A program made the translations under genes and the position numbers. 64,000 nt of DNA from Chrysoperla carnea (taxonomy: Eukaryota > Arthropoda > Insecta > Neuroptera > Chrysopidae), in the NCBI RefSeq assembly GCF_905475395.1, contig NC_058341.1:70191501-70255500 (forward strand), written 5' to 3'. Of the stretch, positions 53,915 through 64,000 are shown piece after piece (position 1 is the stretch's first letter; the number at the start of each line of letters is the position of its first letter). Under the pieces are notes generated by a model that saw nothing but the letters and a program-made list of their open reading frames with translations, had not been told where the DNA came from and searched no databases.

Positions 53915-54352
53915 CTACATTTTGTAACCTAGTTGAGACATCATGCATTATGGTCTAAAGCCAATAGCAACAGTATTTGGTTGGGAGACAGCTGGGGAAA
54001 AAAAAGTTGTTCAGTGTGGAGTCCCTGACTTGGCCAACTTTGAGGTTACCTCATTTTTATATCAGTTTTGTCTTATTATTTAAGGAAACTACAGCTACTG
54101 ACAAATATATTTTGATTCATGAACACCTCAGCTTTACAAATTCTATTCAGGTAAGTGTAGTTTTGACATATATTTATTCTTATGAATAATTTTCTCTATG
54201 TAACTCAAGTGTAACATCATGCACACAATGAAGTTGATCAATAATTTTTATGTAACTTGAGAGTTACATCATGAAGCTGTTAGTGTTTTCTTTTTCAGCC
54301 TAACTATAAGTTTTACACAAGATTTATGCTATTTCAATTATTTTTAGGTGCA

Positions 54353-56289
54353 ATGGATAGAAGTATCAAAGATCCTGAAATAATAAACATCTTGACTCTT
54401 CCCTACGATAGTGAAGATGAATTGGGGGAGCTGCTTGATGAAGATGATATCAACGAAGAAATTGATGACCGAGAACTAATCAAACAATTAGACGAAGTAC
54501 TTGCATCTGCATCTGCATCTATATCTGCATCGTTAGGCCTACATGACGAGGAAGATGTGCCAGCACCTACAAGCTGTGATCATGCCGAGATCCAGGTTGC
54601 AGAGGATGTGGTTTCTGATGTCGAAGGTGAGTCAGTGCCACAAATTGATGATTCTATAAAAATAATGAGTGAAGCAGCAAAAAAGCCCCAGAACAAAGGG
54701 GAAAAAAAGAAAAAGACGAAAGGGAAAAGAAAACGACCACTTGAGTCCGACAAACAAAAAGCCTCCGTAAGTAATGTAAATAAAAATAAAAGGACAAGTA
54801 AAAGTAAGAAACCGAAACAGATATGGACGCATGGTAATTTGGAATATAGGGAGGAACAAACCAGATTTAAAGGAGACTATAGCTTACCTGAAGTAAGTTG
54901 CGAAGAAAGTTTGCTATACTCAACACAAAAAAATCCGGCTAGGCCAAAACCTATATCCAAAACAGAAATTGAGAAATTTTTAGGAATACTAATATTTTCT
55001 TCCATTTCTAATTGTAGCAGTTTGAGAGACATGTGGCACCCTATTAGGGGACACAGCATTGTCAGTGACTGTATGGGAGTAAACACTTTTGATACCATAC
55101 GTTCATTGTTGCATTTTAATGACAACTCGCAACAGCTAGCTCCTAATGATCCAAATCGAGATAGACTGCAAAAACTGCGACCAGTCATCGATAAGATAAA
55201 TTCTAAGTCATTGTCTATTCCAATGAGATCTACCCTGTCAATAGATGAGCAAACATGTGCTACAAAAACAAAACACCACTTGAGGCTTTACAACCCTAAC
55301 AAGCCACACAAATGGGGCTACAAGTTGTACGTTCTTTGTGATGATAGAGGTTTCGCACATAAATTTGAAATATTTTCAGGCAATGTAGAGGCTTCATTGT
55401 TAAATGAACCTGACCTTGGTACAACTGGTAATCTTGTAGTTAGATTGGCTAGAGAAATTCCCAGAAATATGAATTATACCATATACTGTGATAATTATTA
55501 CTCGAGTCTGCCCTTATTTTCGTTCTTCCACACACAAGGCATCTTCATGCTTGGTACCTTTCGAAGAGATCGCCTTCCAGACTGCCCGTTTGAAGAAAAA
55601 TCTGTTATGGCGAAGAAAGAAAGGGGCTATTCCGACGAATGGCTAACAGTTGTAGACGATACAACAATAACTGTTGTAACTGGCATGACAACCAAATTGT
55701 CACAATTGGTTCTACAATGTGTGGAATTTTGCCACAAGAACGTATCAAAAGATACGACAGGAAAACAAAAACTTATAATGAAATCCCGTGTCCAAAGACT
55801 GTGGAAATCTATAATAAGCATATCGGTGGTGTCGACCTAATGGACTCTCACATTGGAAGACACCACATTAGAATCAAGAGCAAAAAGTGGTATTTCAGAC
55901 TTTTCTACCACTTAGTCGACATGGCTGTCGTAAATGCGTGGATATTACATTCGTCCGTACACGAAGACAAGAAGATGAGCCAAAAGGATTTCAGGACAGA
56001 ATTAGCAGTAACCCTTTGCGGCAAAGGACAAAAAGCAACTCCTAAGAGAGGAAGGCCATCAAGACATCTACAAGAACAAGAAGAACTTCGCAAGAAAGCA
56101 TCAGCAGCGCCCAGACCTACCATTCCAGTCATCAAAGACAAAACCGATCATTGGCCAATTTGGGACGAAAAAAGAAATCGGTGCAAAATGCCAAACTGCA
56201 AGGGAAACACAAATGTAAAATGCAGCAAATGTAGTTTGAATCTTTGTTTTCATGCAAAGAAAAACTGTTTTATGGCTTACCATAACTGA
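54353..56289 (+). CDS. piggyBac-like transposase, one frameshift
   Basis: The likely start is the ATG at 54353 (MDRSIKDPEIINILTL); a TTTTTAG acceptor just upstream hints at a 5' UTR intron. An acidic N-terminus is followed by a Lys-rich basic stretch (GEKKKKTKGKRKRP). The catalytic domain has SIDEQTCATKTKHHLRLY, YTIYCDNYYSSLPLF and, after the frameshift, HIGGVDLMDSHIG: the three Asp residues of piggyBac transposases. The C-terminus is a cysteine-rich domain (CKMPNCKGN ... CSKCSLNLCFHAKKNC). The frame changes near 55675-55690 (net one base lost) between TVVDDTTIT and NWHDNQIVTIGST. About 645 residues, close to the family norm. Otherwise intact, so inactivation is recent or a sequence error. 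Confidence 0.92.
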
Positions 56290-57213: not shown

Positions 57214-57520
57214 GTAAGAACATATTTATGTTAGTATTTTATGTTATGTTTATAATAATATGTTCAATACTTTTACAATACATTTTATTAGTAATGAATT
57301 GAACATTATTTTGAAGTCTGCGAAACTTCACCCCCGTGAAGTTGGCCACCGCATTTTTTGTTCCAGAATATAAACCATATGGTTAATAGTAGGGGAGCCC
57401 AAGCGGGGATTTCGGATGTGACTCGAGCTGAGCAGTTTAATATTAGGAGAGAATCTTAGTACTATGTTAAGTACTTTTACCAAGTAGGGTCCCTCGATAT
57501 AGTAACGTGTGTCTAGGGCA

Positions 57521-57715
57521 GCCGATCAGATTAGTAAAAAAAAATCGATCCTGAAAAAAACTCGAGCGCATCAGATTTAAATAATATAACTTAATTACAT
57601 GCAGGAAATATAATCCCTTTAATAATCTGACGGTTTGAGCGTGACTTAAACATGTGAGCGAATCAGTAAACTGCAAAAAAAAATCGTTACCTTGAAATAC
57701 TCGAGCGTAAATTTT
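57521..57715. repeat. Left subterminal repeats of the candidate element
   Basis: Two direct copies: GATCAGATTAGTAAAAAAAA then ATCGATCCTGAAAAAAACTC and GAGCG (57524-57568), and GAATCAGTAAACTGCAAAAA then ATCGTTACCTTGAAATACTC and GAGCG (57659-57707). The second is the reverse complement of the right-side block near 63678-63705 (CACGAGTATTTCAAGG, ATGATTTTTTTTT). Confidence 0.7.
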
Positions 57716-57969
57716 TTTTTTTTATTTCAAAAAGAATAGTTTTAAATTTATAGAAATACCATAATCTGCCGATTTTCATGAGCCTAAGCATCTAAAATTA
57801 TCAAAAGAGTGTCGTATGTACAACCGCTAAGAATTATGTATTTCCCGCTCGACGCCTCTCTTGCCTTCTCACTCTTTCTCTACGTCTTACTCTGTCGCAC
57901 TACCACACACTACTTTTTGCCGCCATGTTGATGTCCCAGCTGATCACAACAACTCGTCCGGTGTTTATC

Positions 57970-58095
57970 TGCGTACAACGCTCGAGTTTGTTTATTGTAT
58001 TTTTACAAGTATTGTATTTTTATGAAATAAAAATAAGTATTGTATTGAAAATACTTGAAAATACAAGTATTGTATTTTTATGAAATAAATGTAGT
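57970..58095. repeat. Short tandem repeat upstream of the nuclease gene
   Basis: ACAAGTATTGTATTTTTATG followed by AAATAAA recurs near 58006 and 58063, with a partial copy between. It lies directly before the ATG at 58120, in the presumed 5' UTR or promoter. Confidence 0.7.
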
Positions 58096-58119
58096 GAATT
58101 TGTTCTATTTTTTGCGAAA

Positions 58120-61100
58120 ATGAGTGATGATAATGAAAATAAAAAAAAATGTGTATTTTGTACGCACGAAACACTTGAAAAAACTATTTCTTTTACACCA
58201 GATACTTTGAAAAAATGCTTAGTGGTTTTAGAGTACCGTCGAACAAAACCAACAAAAAGAAAATCTCGAAATAATTATGACGAAGTAGAATTATTTGATG
58301 AAATATCATTAAGTGAAGTTTATCATGCACAGTGTTATAAACTGTTCACTGCAATAAAAATACCCGCAGACTTTAAAAAAGCAAGTGAAACAGAAAGGAG
58401 TATTATACCAGAAGTTTCAGAAAAAAATGATGTTCCTGCTTCTACAGCAACTCAAATTGCTGATACTTCAGCAGAGCTGTCTATTCCTAGTACTTCTACA
58501 GCAACTCAAATTGCTGATACTTCAGCAGAGCTGTCTATTCCTAGTACTTCTATAATCACTCAAGATACAGAAATATGAACAGAATTGTTAATTCCCAGCA
58601 CTTCTACAACTACTCAACTTGCTGGTACATCAACAGACGAGTAAGTGCAAATATCACTGATAATATTACTTAATATTTTTACTTATTGTTACTTGTTTAG
58701 AAAAAATGTTTATTATTAAAATAATTGTAAATTAATTATAGAAAACTTTTAAAGAAATCAATGTTTGTTTTTAATAATTTCAAATTAAAAAAACAAGTTA
58801 TTGCGAAATTAAACAATGATAAAATTTCTTTGATACATTAATTTTAGTTTTCTAATATTGTTGATTAGTTTCTTATGGGTATAATTTTTTCAGAACGGAA
58901 ATATCAAATAATATTGATGATGAAGGTGACTTGGACAATTATAATGATAACTTTCATGCTGATGAACAAAATAACGAAGAAAATTTGCTGCAAAAATGTT
59001 TTATTTGCGAAAAAACACGCAAACGACGTCAGGGACGGGAACTTCCTTTGGCAGTTACTAGAAAGAAGACGATTGATTTGTTAAAAAGTGCTGCTACGGA
59101 ACACAGTGACGTAGAAATGTTAGAAAAACTTAGTTTATATCCAGAGGATTCCAGTATTGCTTATCATAAATTCTGTAAAGATCAATATCTACGGGATCTG
59201 TCAAAAGGTGAAGAAAGTGATTTTGTCAAGAGGCGCAAGGCAACTAATACATCTTATGTCTTATTATGCGAAATGTTGGATAAATTTATAGTACAAAACA
59301 ACGAATGTTTATTCTTTGATCATGTCAAGAAACAATACCTTTCATTATTAACTGAACAATGTAAGTTATTATCTGATTCAATTAGCGTTTCTTCATTTTC
59401 TGATCGTCATTTGGAGAAAAAACTGATGGAAACCTTTGAGAACAAAATTAAAATCATATATGCAGAGAAAAAAAAATTTCTTGCTCCATTTTCTGCTCAT
59501 ATTGTTACGTACAATGATTTATTTAAAACTATGGCAATGAAAGAAACAATTCGTTCTGTCGCATTACGTCTCAGAGAAGAAATCAATGATTCTGTTAAAA
59601 CCAAAATGCCTGAAGATTGTACTGCAGAAGATTTAATTCGTGGTGAATGTGATTACGTACCGGAACTATTAACATGTTTCTTAGAAACCTTTATTTTGGG
59701 CGATGTTACTCATTTATCGCAAAAATCACGCGAAAAGAAGAGAGATAATTACGATCTTTCACTGTTTTCTCTTGGACAGGATCTTATATACGCCGCTTGT
59801 AATCACAGAATCAAGACTTCAAAGCACGTAACTCTGGGTTTAGCAGTCAAGAGTTTATGTAGCAGTAAAAGAGTTGTTAATATCCTAGCAAAGTATGGAC
59901 ATTGTTGTTCTTACACTGTTTTGGAACAGTTAGAGACGGATCTAGCTTATGCTACGGTGAATAGTGACTCTGTGTGTCCTGAAGATATTTTACAACGCCC
60001 AGATTTGAATACCGGAGTAGCGTTTGACAATTATGATCGTTTTATCGAAACAACAAATGGGAAGGACACTCTTCACGACACAGTAGGCATAATTTTTCAG
60101 GATATAGTTCAGAATAATGACACAATGTCTGTGATGTCTCCAACTATCTGTGAAGAAGAAAATACAACTTCCAATCAAACGGCTCCTGATCATGCTGTGA
60201 TGTCTCCAACTATCTGTGAAGAAGAAAATACAACTTCCAATCAAACGGCTCCTGATCATGCTGTTGAATCTCCAACTACTGCAGTATCTACATCTCAACA
60301 ACGAAAAAACCGAAAACGGTCCTTTAATGTAACATCTTTTGACATGTGTCCATTTGCAAAAAAATTAAAAGTTGCAACCTGGAATAGTCTGGATATTTCA
60401 GCAGTAAATCAAGTTCCTGAAACTTTGAAAACGGTAAAACAGTTGGATGTTACATGGATGATGTCACATTTGTTTAAAATAGCAGATGTTCCAATGTGGG
60501 TAGGTTATCACAGCAAAATATTTATAGATAGTTCACCGGTCCAAAAAATTTCTTATCTTACTACAATAAACGACTCGCCTACAAATCATTCTACAGTTTT
60601 AGAAACCCTTAAATTGAGCCAAAAAATTGCAAAAGAATGTAAAGCTCCATACATCCAGGTCACTTATGATTTAGCCATTGCAAGAATAAGTTATTGCATC
60701 CAAACACAGGAGTCACCAAAATTTGATAATATTTTTATTCATATGGGGGCCTTCCATATTGAGATGGCTTTTTTCAAGGCAATAGGAACATTTATTGAAG
60801 ACTGTGGATTAACTCATATTATGACCGAATGTGACCTGATTGCTGATGGTTCAGTTGCAGGTTTTATAGCTGGAAAAAACTATAATCGGTGTAGACGATT
60901 ACATTCTCTCATGGCAGTAACACTCCAGCAATTACATTTCGAAACATTTTTAGAAAATAAAAATATCACCATCGAAAAGTCGGTAATAGAATATTTAACG
61001 ACCTTCATGCAGCATAAAGATACCTGTCCACAAATACAACATAGTGATACCGAAAAAGTTCTTCAACAGTACGATCAATACACAACTGAAACGTTAGAAG

Positions 61101-63482
61101 GTAAATATGGAAAAACTTCTCAATTCTATGCGATGTATATTGATTTTATAAATCTTTATCACGCTTTTATTGAAAGTATTAGAATTGGGGATTTGGACTT
61201 ATATTTTTATACACTCGGTAAAATTGTGTGCTTATTTTTTACCTATAATCAGCCTAACTACAGTCGGTGGCTTGTATACTATTTAAATCAACTGCAACAT
61301 TTAGACGACACCCATCCAGGCCTTCGAGCTGAAGTTGAAAAAGGTTCATTCGGTATCCGAAGAACAGCAAAACCTTTTTCTCGGATCCCGGTAGATTTGA
61401 CGTTGGAGCAAACAATCAACGGGGAGGCAGCCCGTCGACTCACTGGGATCACTAATTTATCAAGTTCTATCTCTGCTCGACAACGTTGGGCCAGAAATCA
61501 CGGGGGTCGAACGCGCATCATATCCCATGTGCTAGCTCGTGCGGGATTAAACAGTGATCAACAGGACATTGCATCTGATTTAAAACCAGATAGAATAAAA
61601 AATAATCGTAAGCAGATGGAAGCTTTCCTCAATAGTGTTCAACAAACTGCCAACCCATTCTCTCACTCATTGGACAAAGATCAATTGTATAATATTTCGA
61701 CGGGACAAGCTAGCACGCCAGAAATTGCAACTTCTTTATTAAATTCCATGTCATCCGGCGAATTTCTGCGTGATCAATTTATCACTGAATGTAACGTGGA
61801 TTTTAATAGATTCCATAAAGCTGTAAAAAAGAATCCTGTAATGACTTTTGCAAGTTTAAAGAAAAAAAGTCAATCAAAATTGGACAAAAAGTTCATGAAG
61901 TTAAATTACAGCGTGATTTATTTGGTCGTTTATTGGCTTTATCACTTGCAATCGATACCAATATTGATCTTGACAAAATTCTCTGTTTCCCAATAACTCC
62001 TGTCCCTTTATCGCTTTGTCACATTGATGGTTCTATGAATAAGACTGTTAAGTCTGTTTTAATGCAAGAATTAGGAAAAAAAGTTGAACAAATGGATCAA
62101 CCACCGCAGCAGTTGGATTTCTTTATTGTAGATGGCTTCTTTTTCTTCAATACTTTGAAGCAGGTGCCGCGCAGTTTCGGAGATTTGTCAAAAAGAATCC
62201 TTCAAAGCCTTGTGAATAACTCAGCTAGTCACATAGCTATTATTTTTGATCGCTATTTTACACCGTCAATAAAAGACCGCGAACATACTATCAGAGGTAC
62301 TATTGATGATAAAGATTTTAATATTAGCGGGCCACAACAAACGAGAACGGCAGATTTTACTAAAGAACTAAAAAACATCAAGTTCAAAGAAGCTCTTGTT
62401 AAATTTTTGATTGATCATTGGACTGATCCTGAGATGGCTTCGATTATTAGTAACAAAACAATATATCTGAATCACGATTTATGTTACGTTTATTCTGTTA
62501 CGGATAATAAAGTTACACGAAAAATTGATTATGATTTATCCTGTGAAGACCATGAAGAAGCAGATACAAAAATCGTATTTTTTACGTGTCAAATCAAAGA
62601 AGATGCAATGGTTACAATAAGAACTTCAGATACTGATATTGTTGTGATCATGTTAGCCAATATGGAGCATCTGCAAGCCTCTGTAAAAATATGGTTCGAT
62701 CTTGGAGTAGGCAATGCACGCAGATATGTCGATGTTTCTGCTCTTTTTGACAAGTTAGGCCTTTTAGCTTCACAAGCATTACCAGCTTTACACGCATTAA
62801 CAGGATGTGATTTTAATCCTGCTCTTTATAAGCGAGGTAAAAAAAAACCATTGGACATAATGATGGGCTCTGAAGTTTTTCTGAAAGCCTTTGCCAATTT
62901 AGGCTTGGAAACATACACAATTGATGAATTATTTTTGACAATGGAATCTTTTATTTGCCATTTATACGGTCTAAGAAAATTATCTGATGTTAATAGAGCT
63001 AGAATTGAAATTTTCAATAGGACATACAAAGTTACTGATACTACACAACCTTTCTCATTACATGTCCGTAATTACGATGCTTGTAACTTACCACCATGTC
63101 AATCAGAGCTTCGACAGCATTTATTACGAACAAAATATATCGCATGTCTGTGGAGAAATGCTCACTATCGTGTTATCAGTGAAATGTCACCAACAGACTT
63201 CGGGTGGAAAAATGTTGAAGGGAAATTAGAGATGGTTTGGTTTACTGGAAATCAACTACCAGAAGCTTATGAAGATATTGTTGTTACACCTGAGATTTTA
63301 GGAAATATTCCGGATTCTACCGATTCTGGTAAGTTTTTAACGCTGTAATAATATCATGAAAAATAAATAAAAGATTTTTAAGATCATTATTTATTGTTAC
63401 AGATATGCAAGATGTCGATGAAAATGATCAATCTGATTTAAACTTTCGATACGAGGATCATTCAACGGATGACGAAGATTGA
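58120..63482 (+). CDS. Large protein with two C2HC modules and a C-terminal FEN/XPG-like (PIN) nuclease domain
   Basis: Exons 58120-58640, 58894-63328 and 63403-63482, GT-AG with matching phases; about 1,680 residues. Exon 1: CVFC ... YHAQCYKLF; exon 2 start: CFICEKTRK ... YHKFCKDQY, the same C-x2-C/YH-x2-C module twice. The middle is mostly helical, with APYIQVTYDLAIARISY and IHMGAFHIEMAFFKAIG, typical of large 'uncharacterized' invertebrate protein families. The C-terminus has acidic sites in FEN/XPG order: FIVDGFF (codon 62131), IIFDRYF (62248), HEEADTK (62557-62563), SDTDIVV (62629, 62635) and TGCDFNP (62809). Predicted role: metal-dependent nuclease (inference). Lesions: in-frame TGA 58576-58578 in a repeat, and a frameshift near 61890 in an A run. 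The short last exon is acidic. Confidence 0.8.
58441..58560 (+). repeat. 54-bp (18-residue) coding tandem repeat
   Basis: TCTACAGCAACTCAAATTGC and the following bases are repeated exactly at 58441 and 58495. A degenerate third unit from 58549 contains the in-frame TGA. The peptide unit is STATQIADTSAELSIPST. Confidence 0.9.
60131..60262 (+). repeat. 66-bp (22-residue) coding tandem repeat
   Basis: Two copies (60131-60196 and 60197-60262) beginning GTGATGTCTCCAACTATCTG appear identical by eye and keep the frame. They fall in an acidic, Ser/Thr-rich linker (PTICEEENTTSNQTAPDH) of the nuclease gene. Confidence 0.9.
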
Positions 63483-64000
63483 ATATAAAAGAATATGAAT
63501 ATATTTTTTATAAAATATTTCCTATGATTAATTATCTTATACATAAAAAAAATTTTTTAAAAAATTAAAAAAATTTTTTTATTTTCGTCAGATTAAAAAA
63601 ATTCCTCTACCAAATCATCAGATTAAGAGTTTACACTGCTAGAATGTCGAGTTGAACCACCTGTGAAAAATTCTGACACGCACGAGTATTTCAAGGTCAT
63701 GATTTTTTTTTTGCATTTTCAAAAATCGATATAAACTTTTGGTCACGTCCAAATCGTCAGTCTTAGTAATAGGATACTTTTTATAGTTAACTTAACCCCT
63801 CTTTTAAATAGCTGACGAATCCGAGAAAAAACATTTTTTCCCCAACTTCTACCTCGTAATACGGCTACCTGCAACTAGCAATTCGTCAGACTAATATTTC
63901 TCTGTAAACAGGAGTTCGTAGACCGTACACGCTATTGAATTCTGACGCGCTTGACAATTTTTTTGTAACGATTTTTTTTTACATTTTTAAAAATTTATAC
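63483..64000. repeat. Right subterminal zone of the candidate element
   Basis: It carries repeated CGTCAGATTA/CATCAGATTA/CGTCAGTCTTA/CGTCAGACTAA words at 63588, 63617, 63755 and 63885. Two longer direct copies are AATTCTGACACGCACGAGTA (63670) with a following long T tract, and AATTCTGACGCGCTTGACAA (63938) likewise. These are inverted relative to the left-side copies. No gene. Confidence 0.65.

Follow-up and report, generated by a model that had tools for sequence, protein, structure and literature searches.

Transposons of the AcademX lineage have inverted termini, encode one large protein and carry a nuclease of the XPG type. The lineage was reportedly defined by Kojima in 2020 (Mobile DNA 11:15). 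According to the available part of one paper, the target-site duplications are 3 or 4 bp for AcademX and 9 or 10 bp for AcademH, a difference seemingly tied to the encoded nuclease or helicase (PMC10045372). Academ is counted among the DDD/E superfamilies in the parts available of PMC9587614 and PMC10294476, and the Academ consensuses curated in PMC10294476 average 5,565 bp. Academ is also on record in insects, because a whitefly contains 1,097 copies (PMC9143410, available part). Excerpts of PMC9004415, PMC10799480 and PMC12730594 contained nothing further on the nuclease. Furthermore, KolobokE, KolobokP and KolobokD are DDE transposons with an added nuclease, and in that respect resemble the element studied here, but their nucleases are of other types, i.e., lambda-exonuclease-like PD-D/ExK, His-Me finger and DnaQ (PMC9587614, available part). 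No paper combining Academ, transposase and XPG was returned by a literature search.

The element studied here shares the inverted termini and the single large protein with AcademX. It also resembles AcademX in its probable nuclease partner, its probable DDD/E superfamily and its 3-bp target-site duplication, which lies within the 3-4 bp given for AcademX in the excerpt of PMC10045372. With AcademH it would have the Academ superfamily and a DDD/E transposase in common; however, AcademH has a helicase and duplications of 9-10 bp according to the same excerpt (PMC10045372), whereas those of the element are 3 bp. A Pfam scan of the copy B frame described below gave no helicase match.

Boundaries and Parts of the Element

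The window, meaning the whole stretch of 64,000 bp that was analysed, was placed at C5:70,191,501-70,255,500 in an assembly of 559 Mb. The element and its terminal parts are as follows, with window 64121-64132 corresponding to L009:8121-8132.

57387..64132 (6,746 bp; 57387..64000 within the window), forward strand: transposon, window copy, ending at L009:8132
57384..57386, no strand: left target-site duplication TAA; the right TAA is at window 64133-64135, beyond the window
57387..57398, forward strand: left 12-bp terminal inverted repeat TAGTAGGGGAGC, from copy comparison
64121..64132 (L009:8121-8132): right 12-bp terminal inverted repeat GCTCCCCTACTA, from copy comparison
57606..57708, forward strand: subterminal block with inverse similarity to 63678-63782 (72% over 105 bp)

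The common sequence of the copies stops at TAGTAGGGGAGC and GCTCCCCTACTA, and dissimilar flanks follow directly beyond. The original prediction had recognised an element starting at 57391; the element stands, while its true left end is 57387, 4 bp further out. The right end (window 64132) could not be seen then because it lies outside the window, 132 bp beyond its end. The inverted repeats proposed for both flanks were real, being represented by the 12-bp termini (about 430 bp in the second family described below) and by subterminal similarity, which reached 88% over 42 bp between 57668-57708 and 63678-63719 within the longer 72% blocks.

As to the spliced gene that it had been predicted to interrupt, the transposon seems to be nested in an outer repeat, between exon-like stretches with splice-like borders read by eye. 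The outer repeat has inverted ends at 57327-57384 and L009:9355-9410 (59 aligned bp, 93%), and large imperfect inverted repeats were observed in its part to the right of the transposon. In addition, transposase frames at 54284-56289 matched Pfam DDE_Tnp_1_7 (E 1.8e-44 and 2.7e-14) and are piggyBac-like. This piggyBac-like transposase is probably frameshifted, because it is spread over two overlapping frames.

Copies, Target-Site Duplications and Empty Site

Two more full-length copies were found, copy A at C5:65.57 Mb (4.7 Mb off) and copy B at C6:12.76 Mb, with 99.6-99.8% identity to the window copy over their pieces. Both are interrupted by an insert that starts with TG and ends with CA, the 5-bp duplication being GTTAA for copy A and ATCAT for copy B. 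Judged by eye from their open frames, these later arrivals resemble LTR-type retrotransposons. A LINE-like 5' truncation of the two copies was considered and dropped, because their missing left parts were found upstream, beyond the inserts.

The flanking triplets of the three copies were TAA/TAA, TAA/TAA and CAA/CAA. By eye, copy B sits in a frame that resembles gag of a non-LTR retrotransposon, and its flanks joined with a single CAA gave an open frame. The corresponding empty site was present at C6:846000-846477, where the joined flanks aligned over bases 1-478 of 478 at 99%. Aligned one at a time to the empty-site sequence, the 100 bp on the left reached base 273 and the 100 bp on the right started at base 271, so that exactly 3 bp (CAA) were duplicated. 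As read by eye, all 14 insertions readable at both ends had 3-bp duplications, namely 3/3 copies of the window family, 7 of 9 loci of the second family and 4 of 10 short derivatives. The element of the window is a recently mobile DNA transposon.

The mobile element with defined termini and target duplications that had been predicted was thus found in three copies with 3-bp duplications. The other copies and the empty site for which a search had been proposed were both located, and the copies lie at different places with common termini, not at a single syntenic locus.

Relatives in the Genome

A protein search of the genome gave at least 91 matches, among which one copy may yield several pieces. 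Open frames of 1,474, 1,535, 1,584 and 1,588 aa were among the matches, as were four equally scoring copies of 1,533 aa, and five of the frames were read fully. A second family (L032 type) ends in TAGAGT...CTA. Of its nine loci, counted with L022 and L032 left out, seven were readable at both ends, and all seven had 3-bp duplications by eye (TTA, TTG, TAC, TTA, TAG, GAA and TAA).

The left-end search of the genome gave 62 matches, a number of which were inverted pairs about 0.5-0.9 kb apart. Ten short non-autonomous derivatives were taken as end slices; in six of them the right terminus was outside the slice or unrecognisable, and the four readable at both ends had 3-bp duplications (CAA, CTG, CAA and TTT). 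Some derivative termini deviated by one base. C4:62983563-62984494 and about nine other stretches of 0.9 kb agreed in size, hardly differed in score and had related left ends, possibly reflecting a recent burst of non-autonomous copies. Moreover, a decayed relative of the transposon (73%) was present in L012 and L013; a frame next to it, read by eye, resembles the Pif1-like helicase of Helitrons. The two loci had 6,445 aligned bp in common at 98.9%, which suggests that this relative was copied within a larger unit. Viral contigs gave no match to six peptide patterns.

Gene Model and Damage in the Window Copy

The three exons, with GT/AG junctions whose borders were set by eye, give a coding sequence of 5,036 nt, or about 1,679 codons.

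58120..58640, forward strand: exon 1, with a Cys/His module CxxC...HxxxC (by eye) and a premature TGA at 58576-58578
58894..63328, forward strand: exon 2, with a probable DDE transposase region followed by a FEN/XPG-like region
63403..63482, forward strand: exon 3, with a short acidic tail and the stop

A second Cys/His module was recognised by eye at the start of exon 2. The three-exon gene of about 1,680 residues in the original prediction agrees with this model; its exon structure was right, but the break in the reading frame had been overlooked. The in-frame TGA at 58576-58578 has no counterpart in copies A and B, and the A-run at 61862-61868 is one A shorter in the window copy than in copy B, shifting the frame in exon 2. 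The frame of copy B was uninterrupted for 1,378 aa from the insert junction onward. None of the three copies of the window family is intact, since the window copy has the stop and the frameshift and copies A and B are split by their inserts. The window copy also has about 66 bp of its coding region duplicated in tandem, in frame, at window 60125-60281 (L009:4125-4281); in the alignment this duplication was present in copy A and absent from copy B.

Probable Upstream Transposase Region

The upstream 888 residues could be aligned across eight paralogues (alignment A2, whose first row gives the numbering used here).

60026..61418, forward strand: candidate DDE core, with D 60026 (FDNYDR), D 60668 (TYDLAIA) and E 61416 (LEQTIN), all three unchanged across the aligned paralogues

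The residues D289 and D292 (7/7, with one paralogue gapped), D481, H510, C555, H559 and E727 were invariant, and the contexts of the acidic ones were VAFDNxDR, VTYDLAIA and LEQTIN. This pattern and these contexts point to a probable DDE/RNase H transposase core. Pfam DUF6589, a family of unknown function and the sole one of note, matched the upstream half in two of the eight members of A2 with E-values of 0.0008-0.006, under the cut-off, and a literature search on DUF6589 gave nothing useful. The Pfam scan of the intact-looking paralogue L034 gave no match. The mean column identity was 46% over the upstream part (>800 residues) and 49% in the nuclease part.

FEN/XPG-like C-terminal Region

The acidic sites of the C-terminal region were examined in a second alignment of paralogues (A1), and residues are numbered by its first row.

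62128..62811, forward strand: FEN/XPG-like acidic sites, D 62131, D 62248, E 62557, D 62563, D 62629, D 62635 and D 62809

The codons of the motifs start at 62128 (VDG), 62245 (FDR), 62554 (EEAD), 62629 (DTD) and 62803 (GCD). The five predicted sites were real, and all seven acidic residues of FEN/XPG nucleases were present in order. D130, E232, E233, D235, D257, D259 and D317 were invariant in 8/8 aligned rows, and D91, the D of VDG, in 7/7, the eighth row starting later. In L036 the DTD was likewise in place in the paralogue alignment. Compared with FEN1, EXO1 and XPG, the element has the same seven sites in the same order, and the GCD site and the following GxxK stretch are alignable, but the spacings between sites 1-2 and 2-3 differ and the profile similarity is weak. 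The six spacings were 39, 103, 2, 22, 2 and 58, against 48, 72, 2, 19, 2 and 53 in protein L040 of the same genome, which is EXO1-like by our own reading.

At least 119 FEN1-motif stretches were found in genome contigs; the 80 among the matches listed were archaeal by their titles, and 76 of these had a usable frame. The paralogue profile contained 14 sequences, or 12 after the hhalign filter, with L025 dropped as too short. Profile A1 against the archaeal stretches gave an E-value of 0.013 in hhalign, and four pairings with EXO1 added gave 0.015, 0.0027, 0.012 and 0.0016, with probabilities of 2.9, 11.3, 3.5 and 16.2%, respectively. The best score (34.37, paralogues against FEN1 and EXO1) was higher than in any of the 99 column shuffles that ran to completion out of 100, for which the best was 34.26 and the mean 17.9. 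The aligned part was the GCD site with the GxxK stretch after it, and only the GCD part was above noise. Global alignment of the profile to FEN1/EXO1 gave no support (E 0.28). Neither reversing the profile (E 0.39) nor using the upstream region (E 0.84) gave a signal, and an alternative alignment of the FDR site with VFDG was at chance level (E 0.48).

The Pfam scan gave no XPG match for the nuclease region. Pfam 5_3_exonuc_N was matched in one of eight members (E 0.022), beside unrelated matches with E-values of 0.07-0.23. The PDB sequence search gave no credible solved structure for either half of the protein. A search of phages found no EXO1-like relative, and of 61 pattern matches to genome contigs not one could be confirmed. 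From its sequence, the C-terminal region looks like a FEN/XPG-like nuclease, with good motif evidence and weak profile evidence.

Classification and Alternative Explanations

Compared with AcademX by description, the element of the window is most likely an AcademX-type DNA transposon that moves by cut and paste, within the Academ superfamily; its AcademX membership is suggested rather than shown. It is probably a new family of a class that has itself already been described. The original prediction was partly supported. Its mobile element was correct, but an undescribed class was unsupported, since AcademX already combines a nuclease with duplications of 3-4 bp in the available part of PMC10045372. 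The supposed lack of an RNase H-type DDE transposase was likewise unsupported, given the invariant D289/D292, D481 and E727 upstream.

It is rather unlikely that the element belongs to another or unnamed DDE superfamily which acquired a FEN/XPG-like nuclease independently and converged with AcademX. The weak match of the transposase half to DUF6589 would agree with that, as would the fact that Academ is known here by description, not by sequence; however, the duplication length and the nuclease partner fit AcademX as printed (PMC10045372, available part), and an independent acquisition is the less simple course. The idea of the original prediction, that the FEN/PIN-like nuclease carries out transposition without any DDE transposase and so defines a new class, is very unlikely. 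The seven acidic residues are indeed the best recognisable catalytic set, and the upstream RNase H fold is a candidate; but more than 800 upstream residues are conserved about as well as the nuclease part and include an invariant D-D-E-like set. FEN-type enzymes, moreover, hydrolyse and are not known to join ends. DDE joining typically leaves inverted termini flanked by an exact 3-bp duplication.

A single large gene with introns, well conserved among its paralogues, might also be a host nuclease gene or a domesticated copy flanked by repeats through chance. This extremely improbable reading was rejected, because copies at three separate loci have common termini and their own target duplications, and because there is an empty site; many relatives argue against it as well.

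Proposed Mechanism and Significance

As a transposon of the AcademX type, the element would act through a single protein of about 1,680 residues, composed of N-terminal zinc-finger-like modules, the probable DDE core and the C-terminal FEN/XPG-like 5' nuclease. Binding of the ends, excision and joining to a target cut with a 3-nt stagger would fall to the DDE core together with the Cys/His modules; the precise 3-bp duplications and the inverted termini support excision and joining by the DDE core. Intermediates with branches or flaps, whether at the ends or the donor site, may be trimmed by the flap-nuclease part, a role proposed from its nuclease family. That the FEN/XPG-like domain is instead the excision enzyme, with the upstream domain only binding or joining, seems quite improbable. 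If it were true, a eukaryotic transposon would be freed by a flap nuclease.

This recent, well-bounded family has an empty site and, within one genome, relatives whose frames are long and unbroken, and so provides useful material for studying the role of a flap nuclease beside a DDE transposase.
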